Assembly (NCBI GenBank): GCA_004299845.1
Contig: CP036201.1
Location: 2,418,001 to 2,482,000 of the forward strand
Length of the DNA: 64,000 bases
DNA from: Verrucomicrobia bacterium S94
GTDB lineage: Bacteria; Verrucomicrobiota; Kiritimatiellia; Kiritimatiellales; Pontiellaceae
Direction of reading: 5' to 3'
Shown here: piece after piece, positions 31,978-57,229 of the stretch
Layout: each line of letters begins with the position of its first letter
How positions within the stretch are numbered: position 1 is the first letter of the stretch
Notes under the pieces: generated by a model
Databases searched by the model: none
The model's input: the letters and a program-made list of their open reading frames with translations, nothing else
Told to the model about the DNA's origin: nothing
Position numbers and translations under genes: made by a program

Positions 31978-32531
31978 TAGCCGCGATCCCCCTGCATATC
32001 TGTCCACACTCTCAAGTCATCAACCACCTGCTCGCGGATATCCTTATCTGTCGGAAGGACAGACGGGTCCGGGCGATGCACCGCCTGCGTCGTCACGGCG
32101 TACAGGACGCGCGAACCCAGCGTCACCACCCCTTTGCCGCTGCGGCGGTTGATGACCCAACTCGCGCTATCGCCAAATTCGCGCACCCGGCGGCCATGCG
32201 CCGCAGGGTCCACCGGAATAGTCAGATACTTCGCAATGCGCGGACGCACTGTTCCGCCGAAGCGGCGCAGTCCGATCCCCACATGGTCGATATTTACGAC
32301 AGCCTGACGTCCCCGCACCTCGCCCTTGGTTGAGCTCGCCGCCTGCCGGTAAAAATGAAACGGGGAAGTCCCGCGATGCCGCTCCTTTTCCAGTTTAAGG
32401 AAATGCGCCTTCACCACATTCGCGCCGGATGCCGCCATAATTTTCCGGTGCGTTCCTTTTTCATACGCCCGGCGAAGCGCCTCGGTCTTCGGTATCGCGG
32501 AATCTTTGACGGTTACATCAAAATTAATCAC
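31977..32531 (-). CDS. Virion morphogenesis protein, Mu G-like
   Basis: A 184-aa protein resembling the Mu gpG family of virion/tail morphogenesis proteins. It has an N-terminal helix with ASGANVVKAHFLKLEKER, then FHFYRQAASSTKG, a beta segment (VNIDHVGIGLRRFGGTVRP) and a basic middle. It overlaps the F-like gene by 4 bases and the tape measure by 1. In Mu, F and G are next to the portal; here they lie after the tail cassette. Confidence 0.65.
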   Translation of the reverse strand: MINFDVTVKDSAIPKTEALRRAYEKGTHRKIMAASGANVVKAHFLKLEKERHRGTSPFHFYRQAASSTKGEVRGRQAVVNIDHVGIGLRRFGGTVRPRIAKYLTIPVDPAAHGRRVREFGDSASWVINRRSGKGVVTLGSRVLYAVTTQAVHRPDPSVLPTDKDIREQVVDDLRVWTDMQGDRG

Positions 32532-33343
32532 CGCAACGCCTCCATAACAATTCGTCCTGCCTGCACCTTGAACATATCCATCAACGTCTTTTTGAGCCCC
32601 TCCGAAATCCCCGAAGGCATCGCAACCGACACCTCCTCATTAATAAGGTTGCGCTGATCCGGCTGCACCACCGTACTGTGCCTGATCACGCCCAGCCGTT
32701 CGGCCTCATCGCGGCGAACATCGCGGACGCCCATCCCGGAATTATAATCGAACGGCGGATAAGGAACGCCAAAGGCCGACAGCTTTGACCACACCGTATC
32801 ATCCTTCCGGGCAATCATCCGGCCGCCGTAAAACGACCCGCCGGCCGCCGACCAGCGCTGCTCCCAATCGAGGCGAGGATCATTGCGGGCTTCCGTGCGA
32901 ACGAACTCCTGACACGGCCAAAGGTCAAGCAGGTCTGGATCCTGCGCGGCCATATGCTGGCCGTATCCGTGCGCAAATTTTTCCTGCATGTCCGCAATCA
33001 GATTAAGCCGGGCATCGCTTCCAAGATCCTGAACCGACCCCGGCCGCTCCGGCTCATAACCCAGTTTTGCCAGCTCATCGCGCATCTGCAAACGGAACTG
33101 CGCCACATCAACCGCCATTTCTCCGCGCTGCTTCCGCGCCGCCGGCGAGATCATATCCGACAGCATTCGGTCCATCTTCGCCAGATAGCCGGCGTTCGTT
33201 GTGCGCGCCGAAAACAACGCTCTTTCACGAATATCAGCCCCTAACGACGCAAGTTCAGCCGATCCTGCCGAGGTCGGCAGCACCCGCTGCGCGGCCCGAT
33301 ACTCAAGTGCTTCCGCAAAAGGAATTGGCTTATCAAAGATCAT
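32528..33343 (-). CDS. Minor head protein, Mu F-like
   Basis: A 271-aa head morphogenesis protein of the Mu F/SPP1 gp7 kind. The C-terminal part has the characteristic PYPPFDYNSGMGVRDVRRDEAERLG, preceded by a helical N-terminus. Such proteins bind portal and DNA inside the capsid. It overlaps its neighbours at both ends. It lies about 13 kb downstream of the portal gene, which is unusual. Confidence 0.75.
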   Translation of the reverse strand: MIFDKPIPFAEALEYRAAQRVLPTSAGSAELASLGADIRERALFSARTTNAGYLAKMDRMLSDMISPAARKQRGEMAVDVAQFRLQMRDELAKLGYEPERPGSVQDLGSDARLNLIADMQEKFAHGYGQHMAAQDPDLLDLWPCQEFVRTEARNDPRLDWEQRWSAAGGSFYGGRMIARKDDTVWSKLSAFGVPYPPFDYNSGMGVRDVRRDEAERLGVIRHSTVVQPDQRNLINEEVSVAMPSGISEGLKKTLMDMFKVQAGRIVMEALR

Positions 33344-33939: not shown

Positions 33940-34103
33940 TCGAACTCCCCCTCAAAACCGATCGTCGGCAGCTCAATTGCCTTGTACGTCATCGGGATAT
34001 CAAAATATTTCCATTTGTATTCAACGGTTAAACGGGCTGAAGAACAGCCGGACAGCAGAGCCGCCAGCAGCGGAAGTAAAAATAGATTTTTTTTATTTTT
34101 CAT
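33936..34103 (-). CDS. Small phage lipoprotein
   Basis: A 55-aa protein starting MKNKKNLFLLPLLAALLSGC. It has a basic n-region, a hydrophobic core and a lipobox LLSGC, so it is a likely lipoprotein of about 36 residues after cleavage. The mature part (SSARLTVEYKWKYFD then IELPTIGFEGEFD) is not recognised. It overlaps the genes on both sides by a few bases. It is the last member of the exported cassette and could be an outer-membrane spanin or an anchor for the cassette. Confidence 0.75.
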   Translation of the reverse strand: MKNKKNLFLLPLLAALLSGCSSARLTVEYKWKYFDIPMTYKAIELPTIGFEGEFD

Positions 34104-34485
34104 TATCTTCTCCAGGTAAGGCCGGCGGCGCGTTGGTTGTGGCGGCCGCGAGGGTGTTGGTCGTGGCTTCGATCAGCGGCTTTGTGGCGGTGTATTTTAT
34201 GCGGAAAAACTCGGCGTCTTTTACCTCCGGCAGATAAATCAATACGCTTTCCGACCGGTTGCTCGCCGCGCCGAAAACCTTCCAGTCGTTGGAAGTCAGG
34301 TTGGTGCATTGTTCGACGTGCCAGGGGTGCAGGCTCTTATCCACCTTAATCTCAACGACTACTTGCGGAATAATCGTAATCTCCGGCTCAGATTGATTTG
34401 CGGCCGCCGCCGGGAGGATGCATGAAAGAGAGGAGAAAAAACCTGCTGCGGCGACCGCAAAAGTGATTGACATAAAACGACTCAT
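34093..34485 (-). CDS. Exported protein with PVC-type FFR domain, late-operon cassette
   Basis: A 130-aa protein with a Sec signal peptide (MSRFMSITFAVAAAGFF...AAAA). The mature part reads PWHVEQCTNLTSNDWKVFG and DAEFFRIKYTATKP. This is the 'E.stnL..W...fFR' pattern common in exported proteins of Verrucomicrobia-like bacteria. The C-terminus is Thr/Ala-rich. A GGGGGAG ribosome-binding site precedes the ATG. It overlaps the end of the upstream gene by 98 bases, probably because of a frameshift in that gene. Confidence 0.75.
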   Translation of the reverse strand: MSRFMSITFAVAAAGFFSSLSCILPAAAANQSEPEITIIPQVVVEIKVDKSLHPWHVEQCTNLTSNDWKVFGAASNRSESVLIYLPEVKDAEFFRIKYTATKPLIEATTNTLAAATTNAPPALPGEDNEK

Positions 34486-35176
34486 TCGGACTCCCCCAAA
34501 CCGTACTCAAACTGCCTGACCCGGCATTAAAAAACAGGTTCGCACTTACGCGGTCATAGAAGCCGCCGTTGGCGGTGGGGATTAGTACAACACTGTCGTC
34601 TATCGTGATGCTGTAAATTACACCAACAAACGATTGCCAGCTACTAGAAAAATCATTGCCAAATAGGACACGCAACCTGTTGAGGTTAGATGTATTAAAA
34701 GAACCATTGATTATAGTCTCGACTAACGTGCTGTCTCGGTAAAACCTCACGGAAGTTCCGTCTACCTCTATGCGATATACGTGTCGTCCTGCGGTGAAAT
34801 AAATATTATTAGACAATTCCCCGGACACACCATTACGCTGTATAAATACTCTACCGACAGCATCGGCAACTATACGATCAGAGGAGCCAGCAGATGTTAG
34901 ATATCTGTTGATGCCATCAAACATGGCCGGATCACATACCATATCAAATTCAATCGTCGTCCACTCTTTTTTAAAACCAAGCTCAACATACTGCCCCGAC
35001 CCATCACTCTGAACGGCCGCATCATAGCCGGCGAACGTCGCAACACACGCGGCATTGGTGAACGGATCGCTGAATCCGCTGAACGTCTCAACCCCGTTGG
35101 TGGAAATACGCATCTGCAGCGTATCCGCAAAGGCGCTGCAGGCCATGAAAAGAATAATCAGCAAGCGAATCATCAT
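34388..35176 (-). CDS. Exported LamG/concanavalin-like protein, late-operon cassette (probably frameshifted near its end)
   Basis: The 262-aa frame starts with a Sec signal peptide (MMIRLLIILFMACSAFADT). The body is a beta-sandwich of the LamG/concanavalin type (GQYVELGFKKEWTTIEFD, VYRIEVDGTSVRFYRDSTLV, TIDDSVVLIPTANGGFYDRV). It reaches NLFFNAGSGS, which in related proteins is followed by a few residues and the stop. Here the frame continues about 100 bases into the next gene. Adding one T in the TTT near 34524 would end it at GLGESE with the stop overlapping the next ATG. A carbohydrate- or surface-binding role is likely. Confidence 0.75.
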   Translation of the reverse strand: MMIRLLIILFMACSAFADTLQMRISTNGVETFSGFSDPFTNAACVATFAGYDAAVQSDGSGQYVELGFKKEWTTIEFDMVCDPAMFDGINRYLTSAGSSDRIVADAVGRVFIQRNGVSGELSNNIYFTAGRHVYRIEVDGTSVRFYRDSTLVETIINGSFNTSNLNRLRVLFGNDFSSSWQSFVGVIYSITIDDSVVLIPTANGGFYDRVSANLFFNAGSGSLSTVWGSPNESFYVNHFCGRRSRFFLLSFMHPPGGGRKSI

Positions 35177-35976
35177 GGCGTGTAGAACTCCCATACGCCG
35201 TTTGTGGCGGTAATCGACATGCCCGACGGCCAGGTGACCGTATCACCGTCAAATGAGTAACCGTTAATCGTGACATCCCGGCTCGTAACACTCAGGCAAC
35301 GGAAAAATGCCGTTTCCGCGTCCGGCGGCTCTATCGTAATCGAATAACGATTAGATGATGCCGTCGGCCAGTCCTCATCAATCACCGTCACCGGCCGCCA
35401 CTCTAAATGACCGTCCGCCGCGCACCACTCAATCTCGGGGCGATAGCTCACCCCGTTGGTGCTGACGGACATCACGATATTTGTGGATGACGCAGCATCG
35501 ATCTGCACCTCATGCGCCGCCACCTCAATGTCAAGACCGATCATATCAAAGCCGCCGAAGTTGATGGTTGCGCTGCTGCTGTTGGTCGTCTGCGCCGTCT
35601 CAAAATGCCAGTTGTTCCCCAGCTGCACGATCGATCCGCGCACGACCTTGGCGGCATCATTGCCGTAATCCTCAATCCTGGTCACCGCGTATTCCGTCGC
35701 ATTGGTGTAATATTCCCGCACGGTATCAAGGCGCGCCGCATGCAGCGAATAGGTCGGCGGAGATACGATATAGTTGTTGGGGACATAATACCCGCCCGAC
35801 AGCAGTTCCGGATTTTCGAAACCGGTAATCACTATATTGGTCGGGATGCGGATTTCATCCTCCCAGTCAAAACCGGGCACCGAAAAAAAACCGCTGCGCG
35901 CAATCCGAAGCCTGGCATCGGTGCCGAAATAGGGAAGATCAACCGGCGTTTGCGTGGAGTTGGTATAGACCGTCAC
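35173..35976 (-). CDS. Late-operon cassette protein without signal peptide, beta-rich
   Basis: A 267-aa protein starting MTVYTNSTQTPVDLPYFG. It is the only member of the nine-gene cassette without a signal peptide. It is rich in Asn/Thr and beta structure. The middle resembles a distal-tail or fibre carbohydrate-binding fold (IDAASSTNIVMSVSTNGVSY). It contains EWCAADGHLEWRPVTVI and ETAFFRCLSV, echoing the FFR element of the 34093 gene. It overlaps both neighbours by 4 bases, so translation is coupled. Function unknown. Confidence 0.7.
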   Translation of the reverse strand: MTVYTNSTQTPVDLPYFGTDARLRIARSGFFSVPGFDWEDEIRIPTNIVITGFENPELLSGGYYVPNNYIVSPPTYSLHAARLDTVREYYTNATEYAVTRIEDYGNDAAKVVRGSIVQLGNNWHFETAQTTNSSSATINFGGFDMIGLDIEVAAHEVQIDAASSTNIVMSVSTNGVSYRPEIEWCAADGHLEWRPVTVIDEDWPTASSNRYSITIEPPDAETAFFRCLSVTSRDVTINGYSFDGDTVTWPSGMSITATNGVWEFYTP

Positions 35977-36392
35977 CGACCACTGATTACCCCATCATGA
36001 TCAATTCCTGTCAGATCATAGCTGTTTATCCCGGCAGTCAGCGGTGGCGACTCCAGCCACGCGCCCGCCCCCTGCAACGCAATCGCGCCGTTTGTCAGCA
36101 GCTCAACATCACCATAGACCGACCAGCCCAGCCAGTCAGCATCCGGACTCATATCAACCGTTTCAACACGCGGAACACCGCCGTCTGTTCCCAGCGCACG
36201 GACAAGCCGCTCCCCATCGCTAACAGCGATCGGTACGGACGCATCGCCGGTTACCGCATAGACGGTGCCGGTAGCGGGAACCGCCATGTGATCAAGCATA
36301 TCTTTTGTCACATACTGCACCTGCAGCGCAGAGGCAGACACGGCAAATAACATGATCGACGCCAGCAGAGCTGGAATGGGGTAATCGCTCAT
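35973..36392 (-). CDS. Exported protein, late-operon cassette
   Basis: A 139-aa protein with a Sec signal peptide (MSDYPIPALLASIMLFAVSA then SALQV). ATG 36392 is chosen because a GGAGGTAGG ribosome-binding site lies upstream. The frame extends to 36482 but that part lacks coding character. The mature part is not recognised; it contains TVYAVTGDASVPIAVSDGER and ends DGVISGR. It lies between the 653-aa protein and the unsigned member and overlaps the latter by 4 bases. Confidence 0.7.
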   Translation of the reverse strand: MSDYPIPALLASIMLFAVSASALQVQYVTKDMLDHMAVPATGTVYAVTGDASVPIAVSDGERLVRALGTDGGVPRVETVDMSPDADWLGWSVYGDVELLTNGAIALQGAGAWLESPPLTAGINSYDLTGIDHDGVISGR

Positions 36393-36486: not shown

Positions 36487-38448
36487 TCAGAACTCCGTGA
36501 ATCCGCTCAGATCAACCGTTTCCCACTCGTTGGTGTCGCCAATGGCCCGCGCTCCGGCCATAATCGCATCATAGTGCCACACGGCCGAACTCCATGGAGC
36601 ACCTGCTCCGGCAAACGTGGCCGTAGCCGTCAGCGCCAAATCATCGCCGATCTTTATCAGCGTCGGACTGCTTGAATCACCGACAATCTTTGCCCGATAG
36701 AAATCAACATACGTATCCCTGCGCTGGAAATAGAACCCTCCAGGAGGATTGAAAAGATGCGGCTCACTGTAATTCGGATAGTCGGAATTATAACTGCGAC
36801 CATAAAGCCCGATATAATAACTCTCAACAATGCTCAGGCGCTCTAGATGATCGGTAATGACCATCGGATAATTCACCTGATACCTCTTGTTATTAAGTAA
36901 ATTTGTAAACCCCTGATCATACGGAATATAATCAAGCCAGTCTTCCGGCAGACGCTTAACCGGCGTGATCGAGTCCGGCAACGGGGAGTCCAAATGGAAT
37001 ACAATGTAATCAGGACTTAGATTTGTCGGAACAAAATGCCACGTTTCTGGATCAATCTGATATGCCGCCATCATATTGGTAACCGACCAATCCGCATTGG
37101 TGATCACCAGATGATCCACACAGCGCCTGATAACCACATCGTTATCATTATCGACGAAACGTATCTCGAAATCGCCATACACTTTATTAGTATCAGACCA
37201 CCAGCTACTGTCCTGACTCGGATAATAGTGTGCCGATCCAATCACTGTCTGCGGTGTTATCGCCGTCAGAGCGCGGAACTGACCGCTCGGCACCCCATAC
37301 TTATTCGCCAGCGATCCATCGCCGATCTCATTCCACGGGCTCAGGCCGGTAAGGTCCATCTGTCCATACGCCCAGCAGTTCGTGTTGCGAACATAATTGG
37401 TATTCGCGTGATCCTGCAGAGAGAATACCTCGAGCACGGAATCATCCGTACCGTCAAAACCGGCAATCATGGCGGCCATGTTCGTATTAACGTACTCCTT
37501 CACCGACCCGGCAATGTAGGTGTGATTGCTCAGCACCTCGACATACCCTTCATCACCAATCGCAGTTGCCGCCGCCGTCAGCGTCTGCGTCCGCGTCAGA
37601 CTGTCAGACACCAGCGCTATCTTCCCGACGCCATCCACCACACTCACCGCATAGCCGTTCGTCTCGTTAACGTCGAAATAACCATCAAGCGAATAAAACC
37701 GCACCGTCTCCGGCGCATCGCCGACAACAACATCATAACCCGATGTATATGCAAGAGGCGTCAGCTCCGCATAATACGTAATAACGTCAGCATTGTTCGT
37801 AATCGTCGTTTCCGGCGTAACCGTCTGCGCCATCCGCGCCAGCCCGCCGACCGTCGGTTCAAACCACCATTCCATCGGATACCCGCTGGAATCAGCACCT
37901 CCATCCTCAAGCTCGGCAACTTTCGAGCTCAGCAGATCGATCCTCGCCGCATTATCAGCAATCGCTCCCGGAACCTCAGTCGACAGTATAATCTGCCATG
38001 GATCAACAAGATCCAAACCGTCGGACGACGGCGACCATCGAACATCGGCATTAATCCAGGCCAGCACGGTCTGACTCCCGCCTGATACCGCCAACGCATA
38101 GGCGTTATAGGTACCCTCAGGCAGGTTGGCCTGTTCCGGGCTCAGCCTCCAGCTGGCTGTGGTCCCGCTAACCGTCCCGGTGGCCGACAGATAGGCATTG
38201 GTGCCGCTCCAGTCGGTCACCTCGAAAATAACACTCGATCCGTCCAGATCAAATGCATCCCGACCGATGACCGGCCGAAGATCAATCTGCACCGACTCTC
38301 CAGCGAACCACTGCATCGGCAGCCGCCGGTTCGGTCCGTTTCGAACATCCCATTTAACATCGATCGGACGATTGGCAGACCATGCTGCAGCACTCGCTGC
38401 AAGCACCATGCAAATCATTAACCTGCTCACCGTTCTCATATCATTCAT
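36487..38448 (-). CDS. Large exported fibre-like protein, BppU-like N-terminal domain
   Basis: The largest cassette member (653 aa). The signal peptide is MNDMRTVSRLMICMVLAASA followed by AAWSA. An Ig-like domain (about residues 25-150) with FAGESVQIDLRPVIGRDAFD and GTYNAYALAVSGGS recalls the N-terminal domain of baseplate upper proteins. A short trimeric coiled-coil stretch follows (NAARIDLLSSKVAELEDGG, near 175). The rest is a long beta-rich body of unknown fold with many Asn, Asp and Thr. By layout it looks like a receptor-binding or tail-fibre protein, but the signal peptide contradicts cytoplasmic assembly. Confidence 0.7.
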   Translation of the reverse strand: MNDMRTVSRLMICMVLAASAAAWSANRPIDVKWDVRNGPNRRLPMQWFAGESVQIDLRPVIGRDAFDLDGSSVIFEVTDWSGTNAYLSATGTVSGTTASWRLSPEQANLPEGTYNAYALAVSGGSQTVLAWINADVRWSPSSDGLDLVDPWQIILSTEVPGAIADNAARIDLLSSKVAELEDGGADSSGYPMEWWFEPTVGGLARMAQTVTPETTITNNADVITYYAELTPLAYTSGYDVVVGDAPETVRFYSLDGYFDVNETNGYAVSVVDGVGKIALVSDSLTRTQTLTAAATAIGDEGYVEVLSNHTYIAGSVKEYVNTNMAAMIAGFDGTDDSVLEVFSLQDHANTNYVRNTNCWAYGQMDLTGLSPWNEIGDGSLANKYGVPSGQFRALTAITPQTVIGSAHYYPSQDSSWWSDTNKVYGDFEIRFVDNDNDVVIRRCVDHLVITNADWSVTNMMAAYQIDPETWHFVPTNLSPDYIVFHLDSPLPDSITPVKRLPEDWLDYIPYDQGFTNLLNNKRYQVNYPMVITDHLERLSIVESYYIGLYGRSYNSDYPNYSEPHLFNPPGGFYFQRRDTYVDFYRAKIVGDSSSPTLIKIGDDLALTATATFAGAGAPWSSAVWHYDAIMAGARAIGDTNEWETVDLSGFTEF

Positions 38449-39151
38449 AACCAACAGACCCCTGATAAACGACCATATCCAGCGTGGCGGTAACCTTCTC
38501 TGCCGACTCAAAGGTCTCAAATACCACTCGGCCCTTCGAATCCGTACGCTCACAGAGCACGAACTGTGCAGCGGCGGCCGGCTTAACCTTCCGATACGCC
38601 ACCCCTGGACCGCGCGCAGGGTGTGAAAATGCACGTTCCTCCTGAATGGTTATAATATCCGACACATAAGCCGGGATGAAATAACCCGGCGACATCTTAA
38701 AGGTGTAGTATCGTTCAGTACCCGCCGAATATCCATACGGCGTGACATCGAACCGTACAACCACCAGACACCGGCGCTCGCCGACCACGGAACTGAAATC
38801 AATTGTTTTCGGCGTTCCGACCGTACATAACCCCAGATCAAACGATACATCCGGGAAAGACACAATCCCGGCCTCAACATCGAGATCCTCGACGGCCGAA
38901 ATCTGACTCTGAGCATTCGAAAGCGCAATCCCAGTCTCTAATGCAGCATTCAGATCGGCGAGCGTCCAGCCGCTCGATCCAAGACTTCCCGACCAACTCT
39001 CCAGCACATCAAGCCGATCAACCGTGTTTGAATTATCCAAACCAATACCCAGCGCGATGTTAATTTCCGCCGGCGTCAGAACCGTCTCCACCGCCGCATT
39101 CGACCCAAAAGCGACCTGCAGCAGCAATGTAATTATTAAAGGCCTCATCAT
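38441..39151 (-). CDS. Exported cassette protein, paralogue C (two NxxxR repeats)
   Basis: A 236-aa protein with signal peptide MMRPLIITLLLQVAFGSNAA. Two repeats follow (TPAEINIALGIGLDNSN and TLADLNAALETGIALSNAQ), each leading into a short coiled-coil-like VDRLDVLES or ISAVEDL stretch. Next comes a domain starting KTIDFSSVVGERRCLVVVRFD that is shared with the two upstream genes. A GGGAGGGGG ribosome-binding site precedes the double ATG. It overlaps the previous gene by 92 bases and the next by 8. Confidence 0.75.
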   Translation of the reverse strand: MMRPLIITLLLQVAFGSNAAVETVLTPAEINIALGIGLDNSNTVDRLDVLESWSGSLGSSGWTLADLNAALETGIALSNAQSQISAVEDLDVEAGIVSFPDVSFDLGLCTVGTPKTIDFSSVVGERRCLVVVRFDVTPYGYSAGTERYYTFKMSPGYFIPAYVSDIITIQEERAFSHPARGPGVAYRKVKPAAAAQFVLCERTDSKGRVVFETFESAEKVTATLDMVVYQGSVGYE

Positions 39152-39809
39152 TCCCCCTCCCGATAAACCCAATAACCCGTATGTTTCCGGTTCCCCATCG
39201 ATCAGACACTTCGATTACACCGTTTGTGTCAGTTATTGCCGATATGATATAGGGATAACTTCCGCCATCATCTGTCCATAGCGTGGTCTCGGAAATTCCG
39301 CCATAAACAGCACCGACAGTCCCCGGCGTGCGGGCCGACAGATAGCTGTAGGAGAAAGGGCCGCGCGCAACCGGTTCGTACTCAAGCAGCACAAATGCTT
39401 TATTCGATCCGACAACTGAGCTCAAATCAATAGACTGATATGCGTACTCATTGCTACTGACCAGCACATCTGACGATGAGATCAACGAGAACACACCGGC
39501 CGACCCCACCGCACTCTGCGCAAGATCATCATCAATAGCATCAAGCCGCTCAGGCGCATCGGCATTGACAAGCAGATTGTTGAGCGCTGAGTCAATCTGC
39601 TCTGTGTCATATAGGATGTTTGACGCTCCGTCGGTATCAGACATGAACACCTCCAACTTAGTCAGCCGCTCAGGCGCATTCGACACAGCCATCCCGGTCT
39701 GCAGCGCGGAAAGAATATCCGCTGCACTGTAATTAAGGTTTGTCACCGCCCCCAACGAAAGAGAAGAGGAGGCGCAGCACAACAGCATCAACCAAAAGAA
39801 TCGCATCAT
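39060..39809 (-). CDS. Exported cassette protein, paralogue B (two NxxxR repeats)
   Basis: A 249-aa protein with signal peptide MMRFFWLMLLCCASSSLSLG. Its repeats are YSAADILSALQTGMAVSNAP leading into ERLTKLEVF, and YDTEQIDSALNNLLVNADAP leading into ERLDAIDDD. The two copies also share the DNA run AGCCGCTCAGGCGCAT (minus-strand complement), so the duplication is visible at base level. The shared domain starts SIDLSSVVGSNKAFVLLEYE. The C-terminal 92 bases overlap the next gene, which may reflect an indel in a G-run near 39155. An AAGGAG ribosome-binding site is present. Confidence 0.75.
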   Translation of the reverse strand: MMRFFWLMLLCCASSSLSLGAVTNLNYSAADILSALQTGMAVSNAPERLTKLEVFMSDTDGASNILYDTEQIDSALNNLLVNADAPERLDAIDDDLAQSAVGSAGVFSLISSSDVLVSSNEYAYQSIDLSSVVGSNKAFVLLEYEPVARGPFSYSYLSARTPGTVGAVYGGISETTLWTDDGGSYPYIISAITDTNGVIEVSDRWGTGNIRVIGFIGRGNDEAFNNYIAAAGRFWVECGGGDGSDAGGN

Positions 39810-40498
39810 TCATCTCCTTTATTTATGACCGCCGCAAGAAGCCTGAACTCCACGCGATCAGGATCAGCATTCCTGTAATTAACCCACAGCCAGCCGTCCT
39901 CTCCGGTAAACCCGAGAAGTCGGTAATTACCTCCAACCTCAACGCCGGAAGACACCGCGATTCCGTCGTACCAGATCGGTGAGTTAGTCTCTAAGACCGG
40001 CGACACACGGAACGTACCCACATCAGGCGTATCGAGCGGCTTAAGCTGAACAAGCACAATGGCAGAATTATTCGTGCCTACATAACTGCTCAAATCATAT
40101 CTCATCCAGTGAGCGGAATTGGTACTGATAACCGCCGAGCTGATCACCGCATTCGGGTAGATGACCGAATATATATTTGTTGCGGAAACGTTATCTGTAT
40201 AATTCGTCAGAGCCGCCGCACGAGCTGCCGTGTTCGTATTGCGGGCGGCGGAATCAAGAGCGAGGGCAACATAATCATCACTGTAAGCCGTCTCGCTCAA
40301 TCCGGTAAGGCTTCCGTCAATCATAGCATAGAGCGCATCGGTCCGGCTCACACTGTTGCTGTTCTGCAGCAGCCAGTTAAGCGACGGGTTAACATCATCG
40401 GGGCTGAAATCGAAATTAACATTCGTTGTCCCCGACACTTCCTGTGCCTGTACCCGGCACAACAAGACCACCATCAAAATCAATAGTTTCCTCATCAT
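39806..40498 (-). CDS. Exported cassette protein, paralogue A (two NxxxR repeats)
   Basis: A 230-aa protein with signal peptide MMRKLLILMVVLLCRVQAQ. Its repeats are FSPDDVNPSLNWLLQNSNS leading into VSRTDALYA, and YSDDYVALALDSAARNTNTA leading into ARAAALTNY. The shared domain starts MRYDLSSYVGTNNSAIVLVQ. This is the first gene of the exported cassette. Its ATG overlaps the stop of the 163-aa tail-region gene, so it belongs to the same late transcript. Confidence 0.75.
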   Translation of the reverse strand: MMRKLLILMVVLLCRVQAQEVSGTTNVNFDFSPDDVNPSLNWLLQNSNSVSRTDALYAMIDGSLTGLSETAYSDDYVALALDSAARNTNTAARAAALTNYTDNVSATNIYSVIYPNAVISSAVISTNSAHWMRYDLSSYVGTNNSAIVLVQLKPLDTPDVGTFRVSPVLETNSPIWYDGIAVSSGVEVGGNYRLLGFTGEDGWLWVNYRNADPDRVEFRLLAAVINKGDE

Positions 40499-40986
40499 AT
40501 CAGCTCTCCTGAGACTCCTTCCGTCGACACCCATTGCTCCCCGCCGAAGCTGATGGTCACTCCATCCTCGTCAGCAAGCACGGTCTGCGCAGGAATCGGC
40601 TTAATTCCGCCGAAGGTGAGTGTCCAGGCAACCGTGGTAAGCACACCGACAGGGGCTGATGCGGAGAATTCAATGACGCATTCGGGAAGAAGGTATCGGG
40701 TTTCTCCGTCAGACAGCTCCACATCAACATCAGCCTGCAACGGAACCAGCGTGTGCAGCTCGATCAGATACTGCTCAGCATCTTTCTGAGAGTCATGCTC
40801 TGTCTGGATCGTAAACGTCCAGGTGCGGTAGGTATTGCCGCGCGCCTTAGGTTTGGCAAATTCTCCCTGCACAAACGTCAGCACATCCTTGTTCCGCACC
40901 ACCTGCGGAACGAAGTTTGATGGGCCGCCGCGACCGTGATCGCAGAGAACCACCTCTTCTTCGCCGTTGTTTGTCCAGATCTTCAA
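40495..40986 (-). CDS. Tail-region protein of unknown function
   Basis: A 163-aa protein starting MKIWTNNGEEEVVLCDHGRG. It is beta-rich with RTWTFTIQTEHDSQKDAEQY and VGVLTTVAWTLTFGGIKPIP. It lies 5 bases after the tail tube gene and overlaps the first cassette gene. It is in the usual place of tail assembly or chaperone genes, but nothing in the sequence identifies it. Confidence 0.65.
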   Translation of the reverse strand: MKIWTNNGEEEVVLCDHGRGGPSNFVPQVVRNKDVLTFVQGEFAKPKARGNTYRTWTFTIQTEHDSQKDAEQYLIELHTLVPLQADVDVELSDGETRYLLPECVIEFSASAPVGVLTTVAWTLTFGGIKPIPAQTVLADEDGVTISFGGEQWVSTEGVSGELI

Positions 40987-40991
40987 CGCCG

Positions 40992-41930
40992 TTACTCCTC
41001 GATCAATCCGAGGCTGAATACCTGTGAGTTCATCCCGTTAAGGCTAACGAGCGAGAGTTCGCCAACGCGGTTAGACTCCGCACCGAAATTTGAGACGTTG
41101 TTGCTGATCACTGCCTTGCTGAGCGTAAAGGTAGGATCGCCGGCCTGCTCACCGGCCAGCACCAGATCCTTCGCCAGGCCGTACATGCTGCGGCCGCGCC
41201 GTGCGCCGATTCCCTGAACTCCGAGAGCGGTAAGCACCTGTTCCGGAGTAATTCCCTGCGGAACAAAGGTGGCCGTAACGCTCAGGCCGGTGATCTTCTT
41301 GTCGGCAATGCCGTAGGCATCGTTCATCTTGTCGGCAAGCTCCAGATTGAACGACACGACCACACCGCCTTCGGTTTCGATATCATCCCACGGCGCAGAT
41401 TCTCCCCATGCCGCTGCATAATGAAGACGAAGATCTTTGGTCCGATCAAAGCTCGTATCAGTAAATACCTTTGACTGCACAGCGGAAAAGTGATCGGTTC
41501 CCGACCATGCTTCGGTGCAGTCACCCAGACAGGTAAACACCGCCTCTCCGTCATAAAGCGGGAGGTCGGCCCCGAAGGCCAGCCCCGGCATCTGGGTCAG
41601 TGCGCCGTGTTTATAGGTGTACTCCTTCCCGTCAACAGACCAGACCACAATGTCGTCAGGCGTTGCGCCGTAGATCGAGGATCCAAGCACCGGCGTGTGA
41701 TATGGGAAGAGGACGTCGAAATAGGCCTGCGTGGCCATCGGAGCAGGCTTAAAAGATACGGTGTGCAACACACTCGATTGAAACTCATCATATTTTCCCA
41801 TCACCGAGTTCCGGCCCTCAACGGTGGCCACCTCTGCGGTAACGACTACATTCTCTTCGGTGTAAAGGATTGTTGACCCCTTTTTAATTACGGCCGGGCC
41901 TGTGATAATATCTGTTCTGCTGTCAAGCAT
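40992..41930 (-). CDS. Major tail (tube) protein, putative
   Basis: A 312-aa protein starting MLDSRTDIITGPAVIKKGST. It has tube-protein-like features: an N-terminal GPAVIKKGSTILYTEENVVV, a central beta region, and ISVTATFVPQGI-type text (KITGLSVTATFVPQGITPEQ) seen in phage structural proteins. No sheath-like ATPase or long sheath domain is present. It follows the gp37-like gene by 14 bases, the position expected for tube or sheath in Mu-like phages. Size and absence of a separate sheath favour a non-contractile tail. Confidence 0.65.
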   Translation of the reverse strand: MLDSRTDIITGPAVIKKGSTILYTEENVVVTAEVATVEGRNSVMGKYDEFQSSVLHTVSFKPAPMATQAYFDVLFPYHTPVLGSSIYGATPDDIVVWSVDGKEYTYKHGALTQMPGLAFGADLPLYDGEAVFTCLGDCTEAWSGTDHFSAVQSKVFTDTSFDRTKDLRLHYAAAWGESAPWDDIETEGGVVVSFNLELADKMNDAYGIADKKITGLSVTATFVPQGITPEQVLTALGVQGIGARRGRSMYGLAKDLVLAGEQAGDPTFTLSKAVISNNVSNFGAESNRVGELSLVSLNGMNSQVFSLGLIEE

Positions 41931-43152: not shown

Positions 43153-44121
43153 TCAGCTGTCCGAAACTGTGAATTTCCGAATGCCGGTTGTGTCTGTCGC
43201 GGCAATGGTTGAATACTGCTCAACCACCACCTCAACCGTCTTGGCCTTGGAATCGTCCACATAAACGCGGAACTGCTCGCCGCCGTCGCAGGGCGTCCAG
43301 AAGCGTTTGATGTTAGAGGCATCGTCCTTTGAGACCACATCATCCGTATAGTACGCATAGATGAGATTGCTCATGAAGGCCGTCTTGCTGCCGGACTTCG
43401 TCGGCTTGGTGACGGTCTTGGACACATGGAATTTATCCACCCCAAGCACACCTGCCACATCAGACGGAGTCATTGCGGCCAGCGAGAGCGATCCCGCTTT
43501 GGTAGATGCGCGATAGGCGGCTTTCCGGTAGGCCCACGCTGTCATGCCGGAAACCACAATGTTCGGATAGATACCGCGTGCTCCGTGCGCCGCGAGAAGA
43601 CCGGTCTCAATCAGACCGTCAGGATCAGTCGAGCTGGAGAATGTCACATTGGTATTCGTTGCGGCGGCAGCAAGCACCGCATTGACGCGCAGCAGATCGT
43701 TGCGCAGCAGAATGGCGGTCAGCCACTTGGCGGTCTGCTCGAGCGAGCCGTCAACCATCTCATCGCGGTCCAGCGTATAGCTCAGACCTCGGTTTGCGGT
43801 CTTGGCACTCACCGTCGTGCCACGAGCATCGAGCTTGCGGAAGTCGGCGCCGATAGCGCGTTCGTCGTCCTGGTCGGCAAGGAAAGACAGCCCGGCCGGC
43901 GATGTCATGTATTCAAAGCGCCGAGCTGTACGCACCGGCGGAGCCAGCATATCCAGCTCGGTCTGCAGCGGCATCAGATCGGAACCAAGTACGCCGACCA
44001 CGAATTCAGTGACCGCCTCACTGTAGGTAGATCCTTCCAGGCGGTTTTCATTGGCCAGCGCAAGCACGCCGGACTGACCGGCCTGCGATGCGGGGGCAAC
44101 TGCGTGTTCGAGTGATTTCAT
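43153..44121 (-). CDS. Major capsid protein
   Basis: A 322-aa protein starting MKSLEHAVAPASQAGQSGVL. It has HK97-like composition: an N-terminal arm, TELDMLAPPVRTARRFEYMT, a long helix region around LEQTAKWLTAILLRNDLLRV, and GIYPNIVVSGMTAWAYRK. The C-terminal part ends with YVDDSKAKTVEVVVEQYSTI. Position between decoration and gp36 and the fold-like layout support major capsid rather than decoration. Confidence 0.85.
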   Translation of the reverse strand: MKSLEHAVAPASQAGQSGVLALANENRLEGSTYSEAVTEFVVGVLGSDLMPLQTELDMLAPPVRTARRFEYMTSPAGLSFLADQDDERAIGADFRKLDARGTTVSAKTANRGLSYTLDRDEMVDGSLEQTAKWLTAILLRNDLLRVNAVLAAAATNTNVTFSSSTDPDGLIETGLLAAHGARGIYPNIVVSGMTAWAYRKAAYRASTKAGSLSLAAMTPSDVAGVLGVDKFHVSKTVTKPTKSGSKTAFMSNLIYAYYTDDVVSKDDASNIKRFWTPCDGGEQFRVYVDDSKAKTVEVVVEQYSTIAATDTTGIRKFTVSDS

Positions 44122-44146
44122 ATTTCTATCTCCTTAAATGTTATGG

Positions 44147-44533
44147 TTAGGAACCGGACACGGTGACGGTGAACGGGACGCACGAATCAACCTCGATCTC
44201 ATCGCCGTCGCCACCTCCGGTGAGCGCAACGCCTACGCAGAAATAATCGCCATTGGCCTCCGGCAGGGTGGACACCTCGCCGCCTGCGGCGGCGAATACG
44301 CGCTCGCCGGCTTCGATCGTCTCCGAAGCTACCATGGTGATGGAGCCGGGGAAGGACCCAAGAAGATGCACGGCTGCGGAATCATCCGCTGCGGGGGTAT
44401 CGGCACAGGTGCCGATCGGTGCGTCAGACGCTCCGGCCACCGCAATGTGATCGGCATCGCTGCCGAATTTAACGAGCAAATGCTGTGTCGACAGCGCAGC
44501 ATCTGCGATCTTGGTCATGGAACCTTGGTACAT
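44147..44533 (-). CDS. Capsid decoration/cement-like protein (DUF2190-type)
   Basis: A 128-aa small protein rich in Ala, Gly and Val. Segments such as GASDAPIGTCADTPAADDSA, the LGSFPGSITMVASETIEAGE stretch and AAGGEVSTLPEANGDYFCVGVALT resemble DUF2190/decoration proteins. It directly precedes the major capsid gene. Confidence 0.75.
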   Translation of the reverse strand: MYQGSMTKIADAALSTQHLLVKFGSDADHIAVAGASDAPIGTCADTPAADDSAAVHLLGSFPGSITMVASETIEAGERVFAAAGGEVSTLPEANGDYFCVGVALTGGGDGDEIEVDSCVPFTVTVSGS

Positions 44534-44557
44534 AATTATCTCCTAATTTAGGTTCAT

Positions 44558-45763
44558 TTACTGCGCGTCGGCCTGTTCCGCCGGGAACAGGTGCGCAAAT
44601 TCGTCGGTACTCTTGAGCGAGGCATAGGCGGTCTCGTAGCTCATTGACTTCTCATTGGCCAGCTGCGTGGCCGCACGGCGCAGATCAGCGTGCGTGGCCG
44701 CGATGTTGCTTTCCGGCCGCTTGCCTTTAGTCACCGACCCGGTCTTCATGATCGGGTCGATGGAATCGAGTTCATTGGCCAGCGCTTCGAAATCGGCATC
44801 TTCGGCGGCAAACCGACTTTCCCACTTCCCGCGAGTGGCCGGTGTAATTCGTCCGTCGGCCAGTGCCACATCAAGCAGCACATTCTTCAGCCGGGATTCC
44901 CGTGCGGCCAGAGCTTCGTTCGCCAGCTCCATCTCAGCACTCAGCTGCTCAATGGTTGCCGTTGCTGACTCGGGCACCGTCTCGTTGGCCAGCTGCAGCT
45001 CTGCCGCATTGGCTTCGGCCAGAACTCCGAGGTATGCGGCCAACCCGGCTACCGGATCTTCATTTTCCAGTGCCATATAGGCGGCGTCTTCCGCCTTCCA
45101 TCGCTCCTGCTGGGAGTCGCGTAGCGCCTTAAGCCCCTCCAGCATCTTCTGGAAGATAGAGACAAGCTCGTCTTCCGTTTTCACATTTTCCTGCACCTTT
45201 TCGGGCAGCAGCGCTTTCAAACGCTCAAGCAGCTTATTCATGCTGTCTCCTTGGTTAATGATTTCCTGATCATCGCCGCCGTCTTCGCAGGCCAGCGCTA
45301 AATATTCGATCATCGGGGTATGGGTCAGCCCGACGCTGATCATTTTAAACGGCAGTGCTTCGCCTGCGCCGCCTTTTACGGCCAGCCAGTTCGGCGAAAA
45401 ATAAGCGAAGTGTTCGTTGGTCAGCAGTTGCCGGCCCGGCTCGTTCCATTCGACCGTCAGTTCCAGCTTCCGGTCGGCATCGTTGGCGATCATATCGACG
45501 ACCCATCCGTAGGCTCGATGATCCTGATACTTGTCACGGAAACTTTTCACATCCGGATGACCTATATATACGGGCAGGCCGCGAAATCCGTCTTTAACCG
45601 ATGCTGTCATGAATTCATCAACCATCATGGCGGCGGTCTTGGAGTTGATCAGCTGCGTCACTCTGCCGACCTTGTGTGGGTATGAGCCATAAGGGATCAC
45701 CAGCGGCCGGTCGGCGGCAGTCAGTTCGTTGCTCAGGCCTATAAATCTAAGATGTTCTTTCAT
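44558..45763 (-). CDS. Mu I-like prohead protease with scaffold domain
   Basis: A 401-aa protein of the Mu gpI/Z type. The N-terminal protease half has IPYGSYPHKVGRVTQLI, VYIGHPDVKSFRDKYQDHRAYGWV and WNEPGRQLLTNEHFAYFSPNW. The C-terminal half (residues 200-400) is a helical, Ala/Glu-rich scaffold that ends LKSTDEFAHLFPAEQADAQ. ATG 45763 is used because a GGAG site precedes it. Cleavage of the scaffold and capsid arm is the expected job. Confidence 0.87.
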   Translation of the reverse strand: MKEHLRFIGLSNELTAADRPLVIPYGSYPHKVGRVTQLINSKTAAMMVDEFMTASVKDGFRGLPVYIGHPDVKSFRDKYQDHRAYGWVVDMIANDADRKLELTVEWNEPGRQLLTNEHFAYFSPNWLAVKGGAGEALPFKMISVGLTHTPMIEYLALACEDGGDDQEIINQGDSMNKLLERLKALLPEKVQENVKTEDELVSIFQKMLEGLKALRDSQQERWKAEDAAYMALENEDPVAGLAAYLGVLAEANAAELQLANETVPESATATIEQLSAEMELANEALAARESRLKNVLLDVALADGRITPATRGKWESRFAAEDADFEALANELDSIDPIMKTGSVTKGKRPESNIAATHADLRRAATQLANEKSMSYETAYASLKSTDEFAHLFPAEQADAQ

Positions 45764-46010
45764 GCCGCTCATTCTCCAGAAAATGAATATCGATGTACGG
45801 TTGCGGTTTGCTCGGTTCGGATAAAAGATGATGCGATTTCCGCACAGCATCACTGATCTTCCCGATAGAACTTGCGGCGACGTTATAAATGCGCCTGCAA
45901 ATCACCGGAACCGTGTTGCAAAGCTCGAAACAAATCACCGGCGAGCAATAAGGTGCATTTGCCGATAAACAGCTCAGACGCAAAATACGGGCGTTTTTAT
46001 AATTAAGCAT
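45747..46010 (-). CDS. Small cysteine-containing late-operon protein, unknown
   Basis: An 87-aa frame starting MLNYKNARILRLSCLSANAP. It has SPVICFELCNTVPVICRRIY with several Cys, then VAASSIGKISDAVRKSHH. It sits exactly in the gap between portal and protease, overlaps both by a few bases, and has a GGGAGGG site upstream, all of which favour a real gene. I do not recognise the family. The frame contains one copy of a 19-bp repeat also found at 50615. Confidence 0.55.
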   Translation of the reverse strand: MLNYKNARILRLSCLSANAPYCSPVICFELCNTVPVICRRIYNVAASSIGKISDAVRKSHHLLSEPSKPQPYIDIHFLENERHERTS

Positions 46011-47517
46011 CACGACCCTCCCTTACCTCACTCATACCGTTGAACAGATTGGCAGACATGGCATCGGAGATAGCATCAGCGGCGGACGGGTCGGTCAGCA
46101 CATCAGCGGCCAGCGCCGGAAGCTCATCAACCTGGAAACGCTCCAGCGCATCCAGCAGCGCATCGTAGTCATCGTGGTCATCGAGAATCTGCTCGAGCCG
46201 CCTGACGACCGGGGACAGATCATCGGCAATCGCAACCGCAAGCGCACTGCGCGTGGCAGCTCGAAGCCCGGCGGCACGGTCATCGACCGCATCCTCATTC
46301 GCCAGCGGCGTCGACGGAAGTGCCTGTCGGCGCAGCGTTGAGCGATTGTATCGCCGCTGCAGATCTGACTCGTCCTGCTCATAACCCATCTCATGCAGGC
46401 CACGGTCTATTTCAAGATCATGTTTTATATCATCGCGCGCACCGGTCTTAATTTTCACCCAAGCCTTCGGCTCGGTGTCGCCGGTGGCGTAATAGATCGC
46501 CCATCGGTCGAGCTGCTCGTTCAACACATCGGTAATATTCTGCGCGTCGTCATCTTCCAGCAGATCGGTCTCATCGGCCTGCAGACTCGCCCCCTGATTA
46601 TCGGCCGAGATGGTGCTCAGATCAGCACCGCGCCAAACGGTGGCAATCGATCTATCCATTCGCTCAACGAGTGCCGGCTGCGGCAGGTTGGTCATTGTTC
46701 CAACGTTTGGAAATTCGACAGAGCCGCTGGCACTGATCACCACGCCGTCGCAATTCCCCAGCGCGGCGGCGGCATCTTCTGCGGCTTTCCAGTTGTCATC
46801 GCCGGGATTCCCGGTCGTCTTCACCACCGGTATCGGGATGCCGTATTTTTCCGACACGAGCAGCCAGTCCTGCAGCGGAAGGTGTTTGTACATATAGGCC
46901 ACCGCGACCGATTCCATCACGCCGCTTCCCGCGTTAACGATCCACTCTCCCGGTTGCAGCTCCTCTCCGGTCAGATCGCCGATACCGTTCAGCAGGCGCA
47001 GTTCGCCGGTGGTGTTGGAGAAATACCAGAGCGGCACAAAGACCAGCTCGGCGGTCAACCCGTTCGGCGTCGGTTTCCAGATGATCTCGTGAGCGGCATA
47101 GCGTTTGCCCTCCGCGTCCATCATGTTGCGTATAGCCAGGGGCAGCCCCCCGCGAATATTACGGTCATCGCACCGGGTAGCCACCAGCTGGTCGTAAAAG
47201 TACTTCAGCACCTCTGCGTGCTGCCTGGCCTTTGGCGAGTCATCATCAGTAATGATCTCGAACCCATGCCGGCTTACCGCCTTCTTCCGCTTCTGTGCGG
47301 CAACCAGACAAACATCGTCGGTGCGCTCGATCGCATCCCAAAGCTTTGCCGCTTCTTTAAGCCGGCCGGCGTTGAACTCCTCATGCACCCGGACAATATA
47401 ACCAGGCTCCACCCGCCGAAGCGGATTAAAGCGGCTCATCCGTTCAATCGCCACGCGCCGGGCATCAACCGAACTCCCGGGCTTCCGTTTAAATCGTTTT
47501 GCAAATTTCTTAATCAT
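46003..47517 (-). CDS. Portal protein (Mu gp29-like, DUF935)
   Basis: A 504-aa portal. Characteristic segments include MMDAEGKRYAAHEIIWKPTP, LQPGEWIVNAGSGVMESVAV, LPLQDWLLVSEKYGIPIPVVKTTG and TVWRGADLSTISADNQGASLQ. These are conserved in Mu-type portals. Portal forms the dodecameric ring at one capsid vertex. It shares a base with the terminase stop and follows it directly. Confidence 0.93.
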   Translation of the reverse strand: MIKKFAKRFKRKPGSSVDARRVAIERMSRFNPLRRVEPGYIVRVHEEFNAGRLKEAAKLWDAIERTDDVCLVAAQKRKKAVSRHGFEIITDDDSPKARQHAEVLKYFYDQLVATRCDDRNIRGGLPLAIRNMMDAEGKRYAAHEIIWKPTPNGLTAELVFVPLWYFSNTTGELRLLNGIGDLTGEELQPGEWIVNAGSGVMESVAVAYMYKHLPLQDWLLVSEKYGIPIPVVKTTGNPGDDNWKAAEDAAAALGNCDGVVISASGSVEFPNVGTMTNLPQPALVERMDRSIATVWRGADLSTISADNQGASLQADETDLLEDDDAQNITDVLNEQLDRWAIYYATGDTEPKAWVKIKTGARDDIKHDLEIDRGLHEMGYEQDESDLQRRYNRSTLRRQALPSTPLANEDAVDDRAAGLRAATRSALAVAIADDLSPVVRRLEQILDDHDDYDALLDALERFQVDELPALAADVLTDPSAADAISDAMSANLFNGMSEVREGRDA

Positions 47518-49022
47518 TATCCGATGGCTCCTGTTCGTTTGCGGGCGCGGCGGCCGAACAGGCCGCCATCTCGGCGCTTATCCCTCCCCGGAACCGTAAC
47601 CGAAAACGGGCCGGCATTTGTTTCCGCCGCATAGATAGCCAGCGCTTTTGCCCAGAAATGGTCGGCGTGGTCCTCCGAATTGCGACTGGCAGCGATACTT
47701 ACACGGCCGCCGGGCGACACAATGCGTTCGGGCAGGCGGAGGTCGTCGCGCATGCGCTGGTCATAGACATGCTCAATCAGGCCATCTTCGTAAACACGCA
47801 AAAGCAATGTGGCCATGTGCTCCGTGACCTTGATAGTCTCACCCTTGCGGCCGGTCCTCTGCACCTCGGCAGAGATTGGCACCGTGCTTGAAAAGTTGAC
47901 GCCCTGAATACGGAGGTATCCATATTTCTCCTGGGTGTACTCGGTCACGCCAAGCCCGATGCCGGTCATATCTATCTTTGCACAGCGGAAGCAGGGGTGC
48001 TGCACAATAACTTCAAGGCGTGCCTGCTGGGCAGGCAGCCGCATATCAGCGAGGCGCAGCGTTACTCGTTCACGGAAGATCGGCCCGACCTTTTCCATTA
48101 CGCTGATCACGGAGATATCGCGCTTGCGGCCGACATCATATCCGACATAGATCGGGTTTGTTATTTCCGCCAGTTTATCCAGCGCGGCTCTGCTCCACTC
48201 CTGTTCACAGATAACTCCGACGCCCTCACGTTCAGCCTTGCCTATCAACTCGTAGGTGAGCAGGTTCGAATTTTCATCAGCCCACTTCAGTTCATAGTTC
48301 TGGTCATAGGCCTTCTTATCGATGGCGGCGGCGCGGGCTTCATCCGGCGTGATCTCTTTTCGCGTTGTCGGGTGATAAATCTTAAGCCCCTGCTTATAAG
48401 CATCGGAGCGGCGCACTTTGACCACCTTATATTGCCCGCAGGTAACCATGACGTAGAACATATTCTGCGTGCCGTTCGGAGTTGATGCGATGCGGCAAAG
48501 AAAATCCGGGTTAGATGAAAGTATTGGTTCCGCTGCTTCCCAGATCGCTTTGCCATTTTCGTGGAAGGCAAACTCATCCAGCACCAGGTCGCCGGAGAAC
48601 CCGCGCGCCGTTCGCGGGTTGGCTGCAAGCACCTTGCATCGGCTCACTTTGCCGTCAACCTCGATGCGACTCTCCATATTCATATTTTCGTACTTCAGAT
48701 CTTCGGAAAGATCTTCCTGCTGAACCACCTCTCCGAGGAGGTCACATATTTCGCGCACTTTCTGGTTGAGCTCTGCCCCGTTGTCTCGGCTGTTCGACAA
48801 TACTGTGATCAGCCGACCAGGCCGGGTCAACATGCGGTCAACAATCCAGCAGGCCAGGGTGAAGGATTTCCCGATCTGGCGGGACCAGAACCAAATGCAG
48901 ATGCCACTGGTGCGGTCAAGAAACGGTTCCTCCTGATATGCGCGAAATCTGATTTTTGCGATTCTCGCGACCTTCTCAGGATCCTGCGCGACATCATGCG
49001 CCTGCTTTGCAAAAGGAGCCAT
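47517..49022 (-). CDS. Terminase large subunit (Mu gp28-like)
   Basis: A 501-aa DNA-packaging ATPase/nuclease. Walker A-like SRQIGKSFTLACWIVDRML is near residue 50, Walker B VLDEFAFHE near 140 and a coupling-motif region (IASTPNGTQNMFYV) near 170. The nuclease half includes YVGYDVGRKRDISVI. It follows the gp27-like gene by one base. Confidence 0.93.
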   Translation of the reverse strand: MAPFAKQAHDVAQDPEKVARIAKIRFRAYQEEPFLDRTSGICIWFWSRQIGKSFTLACWIVDRMLTRPGRLITVLSNSRDNGAELNQKVREICDLLGEVVQQEDLSEDLKYENMNMESRIEVDGKVSRCKVLAANPRTARGFSGDLVLDEFAFHENGKAIWEAAEPILSSNPDFLCRIASTPNGTQNMFYVMVTCGQYKVVKVRRSDAYKQGLKIYHPTTRKEITPDEARAAAIDKKAYDQNYELKWADENSNLLTYELIGKAEREGVGVICEQEWSRAALDKLAEITNPIYVGYDVGRKRDISVISVMEKVGPIFRERVTLRLADMRLPAQQARLEVIVQHPCFRCAKIDMTGIGLGVTEYTQEKYGYLRIQGVNFSSTVPISAEVQRTGRKGETIKVTEHMATLLLRVYEDGLIEHVYDQRMRDDLRLPERIVSPGGRVSIAASRNSEDHADHFWAKALAIYAAETNAGPFSVTVPGRDKRRDGGLFGRRARKRTGAIG

Positions 49023-49579
49023 TACTCGCCATCCTCCGGAATTACGCTGAACAGTTTGCGGCGGGCAGCAGTAATTTTATCATCCGACGACATCGATCGA
49101 TCTGACTGAATTGATTTAAGCGTTGCGACATTATCCAGAGCAGCTTTGGCTGCATCAAACTGAAAGCGGTCAATCTGCAACTCCAGCTGCTTCTCATCCA
49201 GCGCGGCCTTCTGAATGCGCAGCAGCACGTTGGTGAGTTTGGTTAAGCCGTCTTCGTCTTTCGTAAGCACCGCTTCAAACGCCGCCTGCTTGAGGGCGGC
49301 CTCCATAGCCTGGTCAATGCGCGGCAGGTTATCGGCTGCAGCGCCGAGAATTGCATCAGCACCGGTTACGGCCTGGAGAATGCGATTCTCGCTCTCCTGC
49401 TGCGCCCAATACTGATAGGCTGCATGGAGCGCGCCGGTGCTGACCTTTACGCCGAGATTTTCCGCAATCCACAGCCGCGCCTTGGTGTAACCAAGACGCT
49501 TAACGGCATCATAGGCCTGCGCCTGATCTTCGTCGGGCAGGTTAAGCAGCTTGCTGTCTGATCGTGGTTTTCTGCTCAT
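49022..49579 (-). CDS. Small terminase-like protein (Mu gp27-like, DUF3486)
   Basis: A 185-aa helical protein starting MSRKPRSDSKLLNLPDEDQA. The helix-turn-helix-like part (GYTKARLWIAENLGVKVSTG) is followed by a long coiled coil. This is the DUF3486 layout, thought to be the small terminase of Mu-like phages. It lies next to the large terminase. Confidence 0.85.
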   Translation of the reverse strand: MSRKPRSDSKLLNLPDEDQAQAYDAVKRLGYTKARLWIAENLGVKVSTGALHAAYQYWAQQESENRILQAVTGADAILGAAADNLPRIDQAMEAALKQAAFEAVLTKDEDGLTKLTNVLLRIQKAALDEKQLELQIDRFQFDAAKAALDNVATLKSIQSDRSMSSDDKITAARRKLFSVIPEDGE

Positions 49580-56132: not shown

Positions 56133-56151
56133 CACGGAGGAACAGTAAGAA

Positions 56152-57204: not shown

Positions 57205-57229
57205 AAAACATAAAAAGGAGATATAAATT

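Follow-up and report, generated by a model that had tools for sequence, protein, structure and literature searches.

Tailed phages are generally considered to assemble in the cytoplasm, where tail fibres need no export signal. Three tandem genes of a Mu-like prophage in Verrucomicrobia bacterium S94, here termed g1, g2 and g3, raise the question of why proteins of a tail-fibre module should each begin with a predicted Sec-type signal peptide. The genes lie in a 64,000-nucleotide stretch (assembly GCA_004299845.1; contig CP036201.1, positions 2,418,001 to 2,482,000 of the forward strand), which is called the window below and to which gene coordinates refer unless a locus is named. A sequence-only reading of this DNA had likened the three products to tail-fibre heads; that fibre reading is probably correct, yet it passed over the unusual point, namely that proteins in the fibre module of a tailed phage bear export signals. 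In the interpretation that we favour, and which we put at about even, g1–g3 form a fibre module made for export: their products pass out of the cytoplasm and are most probably added to virions when the cell lyses.

Three diverged paralogues begin with predicted signal peptides

All three genes are on the minus strand and are transcribed in the order g3 (39809..40498; 230 amino acids (aa)), g2 (39063..39809; 249 aa) and g1 (38444..39151; 236 aa), with starts at 40498, 39809 and 39151 that each follow a Shine-Dalgarno-like sequence and with stop codons that end at 39806, 39060 and 38441, respectively. Each product consists of a predicted signal peptide, two copies of a repeat motif and a C-terminal beta domain. 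This domain had been described as opening with DLSS(V/Y)VG throughout, which is borne out in g3 (DLSSYVG; 40076-40096) and g2 (DLSSVVG; 39408-39428) and fails in g1, which reads DFSSVVG (38780-38800).

The similarity extends beyond the signal peptide, as had been proposed. Alignment of the mature sequences scored 87 for g1/g2 (shuffle mean 35.6; Z 8.4), 95 for g2/g3 (38.7; Z 7.7) and 66 for g1/g3 (33.7; Z 5.9), and none of 500 shuffles reached the score of any pair; taken alone, the C-terminal half of g1 against that of g3 was not significant (Z 0.8; 105 of 500 shuffles). Judged from their sequences, g1, g2 and g3 are true paralogues, long-diverged neighbouring copies of one gene, with identities to g3 of 25–29%. 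The final 30 residues of g2 are encoded across the beginning of g1 (39063-39151), and other members of the family stop near the position equivalent to g2 residue 219; an extension out of frame, or an error in the assembly, may account for this end of g2.

The repeat motif is 26–27 residues long, and its two copies per protein are 37–41 residues apart (minus strand; g3, 40331-40408 and 40208-40285; g2, 39651-39731 and 39531-39611; g1, 38999-39079 and 38888-38968). When the best ungapped self-match of the first 100 mature residues was compared with 300 shuffles, 0, 2 and 8 shuffles reached the value of g2, g1 and g3, at offsets of 40, 37 and 41 residues, respectively. By this test the six motif copies reported earlier are real, and weakest in g3. 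The DNA string said to be shared by the two copies of the middle gene was likewise recovered: the window contains these 16 bases at just two places, 39544 and 39664, and their spacing of 120 bases is in register with the 40-residue repeat of g2.

By inspection, the N termini of g1–g3 read MMR, then a hydrophobic stretch and then a small-x-small site, and each is predicted to be a canonical Sec-type signal peptide. Small residues occupy positions −3/−1 in g3 (VQA), g2 (LGA) and g1 (SNA), as well as in proteins of the related loci L049 (GRA) and L033 (VFA) described below; cleavage of g3 is likely after VQA, at residue 18.

A cassette of signal-peptide genes recurs in related prophages

Within the late operon of this tailed phage, g1–g3 are part of the tail module, with the inferred tail-tube gene on one side and a minor-head gene on the other. 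The tail tube is assigned from gene order to a 312-aa protein (40995..41930, minus strand), which gave no hidden Markov model (HMM) match and served as the anchor for finding related prophages. Upstream, the cassette is bordered by the gene of a 163-aa protein (40498..40986, minus strand), which has no signal peptide and is kept in related prophages; downstream, the border is the gene of a minor-head-like protein (32531..33343, minus strand), whose L033 homologue matches phrog_220 (1.3e-5), and beyond it lie genes for a 184-aa protein and two large tail proteins.

When phylum genomes, viral contigs and named contigs were searched with a profile built on the 312-aa protein, it matched 17 of 387 phylum genomes (own genome included), four environmental viral contigs and a single named contig, CAIKGD010000007.1, from an uncultured Verrucomicrobia bacterium. 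Gene order was read downstream of the homologue in the far-reaching loci and in L049, a viral contig found via the g1–g3 family. Most related loci carry one to several signal-peptide genes between the 312-aa homologue and the minor-head gene.

A strict count applied a home-made signal-peptide rule to genes of at least 150 aa in the 13 loci with both cassette borders (13 of 21 listed loci, those with the end marker; L032, L033 and L050 are the same place, and only L033 was counted). Signal peptides were called in 25 of 46 cassette genes and in 5 of 128 flanking genes (5 of 82 head-side and 0 of 46 tail-side genes; Fisher p 4e-13, which overstates independence as the loci are related), and shuffled N termini passed at 1–3%. 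At least one signal-peptide gene is present in 11 of the 12 loci having a cassette; the misses were L044 (0 of 3) and L030, which has no cassette. The window itself enters as 3 of 7, the gene caller having missed g1 and misplaced the starts of the 653-aa and 169-aa genes, errors that were left uncorrected. Under a looser rule, with all lengths and three open-ended loci added, the count was 40 of 67 in cassettes versus 30 of 261 elsewhere, with 17.6% of shuffled cassette N termini passing. On the head side, a signal peptide was noted in one gene each of L036 (a 225-aa gene) and L035 (L035:3559-3951).

Signal-peptide siblings carry recognised fibre domains

Cassette proteins with recognised fibre domains do begin with signal peptides, which places g1–g3 in the fibre context suspected earlier. 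For example, the 445-aa protein L049:8544-9878 has a signal peptide, a beta-like domain and repeats of NPHAVTKAQVGLG type and matches a tail collar fibre family (6.4e-22), while the 657-aa signal-peptide protein L035:6977-8947 matches another such family (1.6e-28). The signal-peptide 655-aa protein of L033 matches a tail-fibre family (1.4e-22), its best stretch beginning in the collagen part; Pfam Collagen is found in a signal-peptide cassette sibling (1.7e-8), and a 251-aa protein of L049 has a laminin-G domain (2.4e-7). Neither the 655-aa protein nor the tube protein of L033 had a match in the phage collection. Links drawn by jackhmmer among the 655-aa proteins were set aside, low-complexity stalks having probably inflated them.

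The hydrophobic N terminus could instead be an uncleaved anchor helix that docks the fibre onto the tail tip within the cytoplasm. Most of the tagged proteins do fall in one virion module, and the signal peptides were called without a validated predictor, as this would allow. However, the n-h-c pattern and the small residues at −3/−1 in members of the g1–g3 family argue for cleavable signals, and the same segment heads unrelated architectures (collagen, collar, protease and laminin-G), which counts against docking; we regard the anchor helix as distinctly unlikely.

Some cassettes also hold BppU-like proteins; the BppU/LtfC-like beta-sandwich is a feature of tail adsorption proteins. In L035, L036, L039, L041 and L029 a BppU-like protein without a signal peptide directly precedes a signal-peptide fibre gene, an arrangement that would fit separate compartments for making adaptor and fibre. 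In L042, a BppU-like protein with a signal peptide sits after the large tail proteins instead.

Predicted structure of g3 and the nearest precedents

The single-chain model of g3 (mean predicted local distance difference test, pLDDT, 51.5) comprises two helix pairs (residues 33-45/51-64 and 74-87/91-106) and a beta domain (109-227); confidence is low for the helices, where block means reach at most 44, and 42-81 for the beta domain. In a seven-row alignment with the same-place proteins of three other loci, the C-terminal layout is common to all: it opens with a DLSS.VG-like sequence and has a T-D-x-x-G-like one close to its end. In structural comparison the tip of g3 came nearest to fibre tips, the best match being the trimeric fibre tip of Bd2133, a mosaic adhesive trimer (MAT) protein of Bdellovibrio (Z 6.8; root-mean-square deviation 3.8 over 107 residues) and the next SU10 phage tail proteins (Z 6.3), both below 8, a range where a shared arrangement is common and unrelated folds can score. 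Foldseek searches of g3 returned mixed carbohydrate-binding module, lectin and haemagglutinin rows from the PDB at template modelling scores below 0.4, and low-scoring rows including some tail fibres from viral models; these are not used as main evidence.

Compared with the tail and tail collar fibres of tailed phages in PHROG, the system shares the late-operon place, the beta tip of g3, and the collagen, collar or repeat stalks and fibre HMM matches of the cassette siblings; it differs in the N-terminal Sec-type signal peptides of the cassette and in that g1–g3 match no fibre family. Because of this last point, g1–g3 are assigned to the fibre cassette by their place and their siblings.

A second comparison is offered by the MAT proteins of Bdellovibrio bacteriovorus, which are host-encoded, phage-fibre-like proteins with a signal peptide; in all 21 of them a beta-rich domain of ~130 aa directly follows the signal peptide, and 13 are described with an S74 autoprotease (PMC10769870). 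Like these, g1–g3 have a predicted signal peptide; the neighbouring 653-aa protein may have a comparable layout, and the Bd2133 tip is the top structural match of g3, at a Z below 8. The MAT proteins are predator-encoded, whereas the genes here are prophage-encoded; their protease is of the S74 type, compared with a chymotrypsin-like one here; and their beta domain follows the signal peptide, where g1–g3 have predicted helical repeats. Since the Bd2133 match is within the range of unrelated folds, g1–g3 are likened to exported fibres and not named MAT proteins: by analogy they would work like exported fibres, with MAT proteins as the nearest precedent for exported phage-like fibres.

The same precedent suggests another role, in which the products are exported but never enter the virion. 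They would then work at the envelope of the lysogen or of the lysing cell, either as adhesins of the MAT kind or by shielding receptors, which would bar superinfection and keep progeny from sticking to debris. The signal peptides and the Bd2133 match would fit, and the BppU-like proteins without a signal peptide in some cassettes could be the virion-bound part. On the other hand, the genes sit in a late structural operon between tail and head genes, their signal-peptide siblings are ordinary tail-fibre and collar proteins, and no other fibre gene was recognised among the scanned late genes of the window. An envelope role is thus a serious but rather unlikely alternative.

The adjacent 653-aa protein carries a predicted protease domain

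Directly downstream of g1, a 653-aa protein (36490..38448, minus strand) combines a signal peptide, an N-terminal beta-sandwich-like domain (about residues 27-140, as we infer), a short helix NAARIDLLSSKVAELE (37906-37953) and a C-terminal chymotrypsin-like domain. The sequence-only reading had seen in this helix a stretch similar to the g1–g3 motif; the resemblance proved to be merely heptad-like, and the protein was rejected as a fourth paralogue (Z 0.0 to 1.6 against g1–g3). It is 33% identical to the 655-aa protein of L033. Residues 69-109 fall below the cut-off for Pfam LtfC (0.046), so the likeness to BppU/LtfC proteins is not significant, and this region differs from them in being preceded by a signal peptide.

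The catalytic His (37222-37236), Asp (36991-37017) and Ser (GDSSSP; 36664-36681) motifs occur in the order of S1 proteases, with a GDSG-like serine motif. His, Asp and Gly-Asp-Ser are invariant in all ten aligned sequences of the family, which come from four phage-type loci (the window, L033, L034 and L048) and six other phylum proteins. A profile of these ten matched solved S1 proteases in the PDB, namely coagulation factor IX (factor IXa) chains (1.4e-5), the serine protease chain 7uxg (1.3e-4) and trypsins (~0.002). The window protein alone gave no useful PDB match, no Pfam model matched the ten members at 0.1, and the structure model was of low confidence (pLDDT 30.7). The C-terminal part is thus predicted from its profile to be a chymotrypsin-like protease that, unlike known S1/PA-clan members, matches no Pfam model and is fused to a fibre-like protein.

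Proteins with the same trypsin-like domain occur in other phylum genomes (L052, L053, L054, L055, L058, L061, L062 and L064); by sequence they look like an undescribed secreted protease family, with no Pfam match in the members scanned. Some of these look host-type (L052, L053, L062 and L064), as would be expected if the cassette were host-derived cargo, that is, morons serving the lysogen and unrelated to tails. The tight, overlapping gene order with tail genes and the conserved place in diverged prophages make this hardly credible.

Distribution of the g1–g3 family

In a search with a profile of the three window proteins, L049 (3.2e-5) and L032 (7.2e-4) both scored higher than every one of 8000 shuffles. 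Direct matches were obtained in 2 of 97 and 3 of 288 genomes (own genome included), among which G029 (L006) proved syntenic; L004 and L007 were judged from their surroundings to be chance matches. No direct relative of g3 or of g1–g3 was confirmed in the viral contigs.

At the same place in four loci, the family has three copies (the window), two (L028), one (L032/L033) and one (L049). Such varying copy number would suit the earlier proposal of a recently expanded, variable fibre set for host-range switching. However, the low identity to g3 and the lack of long DNA repeats (the longest exact one found being 16 bases) do not agree with recent duplication, and the differences in copy number lie between diverged phages, not strains; host-range switching is therefore very unlikely.

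Other genes of the prophage and the window

The prophage is a Mu-like transposable phage, with a plus-strand transposition module (54066..58728) of Mu-type transposase (phrog_310), MuB-like ATPase and Gam-like protein, and a minus-strand head module (43156..49579) of gp27-like protein, terminase, Mu portal, protease I, cement protein and major head protein; a gp36-like protein is also among the minus-strand late genes.

Further minus-strand cassette genes encode a signal-peptide protein starting MSDYPIPALLAS (35976..36392) and signal-peptide proteins of 262 aa (34391..35176) and 130 aa (34096..34485). Reading frames of 169 and 267 aa meet at 35973-35976 in an overlapping stop and GTG, and the latter has neither signal peptide nor ribosome site; the MSDYPIPALLAS protein may be the 5′ part of one interrupted fibre gene continued by 35176-35976. 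At the place matching the 262-aa protein, L049 encodes a concanavalin/laminin-G domain, a likeness by position only. A 198-aa protein (33346-33939) matches phrog_1128 (6.8e-11), annotated as enoyl-CoA hydratase-like, and resembles by eye a papain-like amidase. rpoB- and rpoC-like genes were recognised by eye at 9.3-17.3 kb of the window.

Weighing the exported-fibre reading

Several points weigh against an exported fibre module. The signal-peptide calls come from a crude home-made rule rather than from SignalP, and the strict rule also flagged the five head-side genes. At least five BppU-like proteins in other cassettes have no signal peptide, and not all adsorption proteins are thus exported. 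g1 and g2 have no PHROG or Pfam match at E up to 1, the sole match of g3 (0.024) is to a family without assigned function, and the structural Z scores of g3 stay below 8. The reverse profile, built from the four outside proteins, puts g2 first at only E 0.05, ranks g3 fifth among shuffles and misses g1, and hhalign of the window and outside groups gave 8.7% probability. g1–g3 belong to the cassette by place, shared trait and the weak but above-shuffle profile matches to L049 and L032, and their presence in virions is a prediction from gene context.

On the exported-fibre reading, g1–g3 would be short fibre or tip proteins of the tail-adsorption cassette. Their Sec signal peptides would take them out of the cytoplasm, and in the periplasm they would fold into an oligomer with a helical stalk, formed by the two motif copies as predicted helical hairpins, and a beta-sandwich tip. 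They would most likely join tails assembled in the cytoplasm, either at lysis or at the cell surface, and may then bind the receptor. The 653-aa fibre would add a putative trypsin-like protease, and its export would spare cytoplasmic proteins. Disulphide formation outside the cytoplasm would suit the cysteine-rich 655-aa sequence of L033; g1, g2 and g3 hold only 3, 3 and 1 cysteines, respectively, and the 653-aa protein holds 3.

Implications

Among open-licence papers, no report was recognised of tail fibres with signal peptides, of extracytoplasmic fibre addition or of fibre genes used as envelope proteins, and none was found on Kiritimatiellota and prophages. The export passages available from PMC3556154 and PMC12989515 concern lysis proteins.

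More tentatively, and on the doubtful side of even, a Mu-like phage lineage of this phylum may build its virions in two compartments, with heads and tails made in the cytoplasm and fibres in the periplasm after Sec export, to be joined at lysis; phage fibres of this kind would be an obvious origin for host-encoded exported fibre adhesins such as the MAT proteins. With a signal-peptide fibre cassette conserved in many related prophages, the matter can be tested directly: either the fibres are added outside the cytoplasm, or phage fibre genes serve as envelope proteins of the infected cell; each, if true, would link phage fibres to exported bacterial adhesins.

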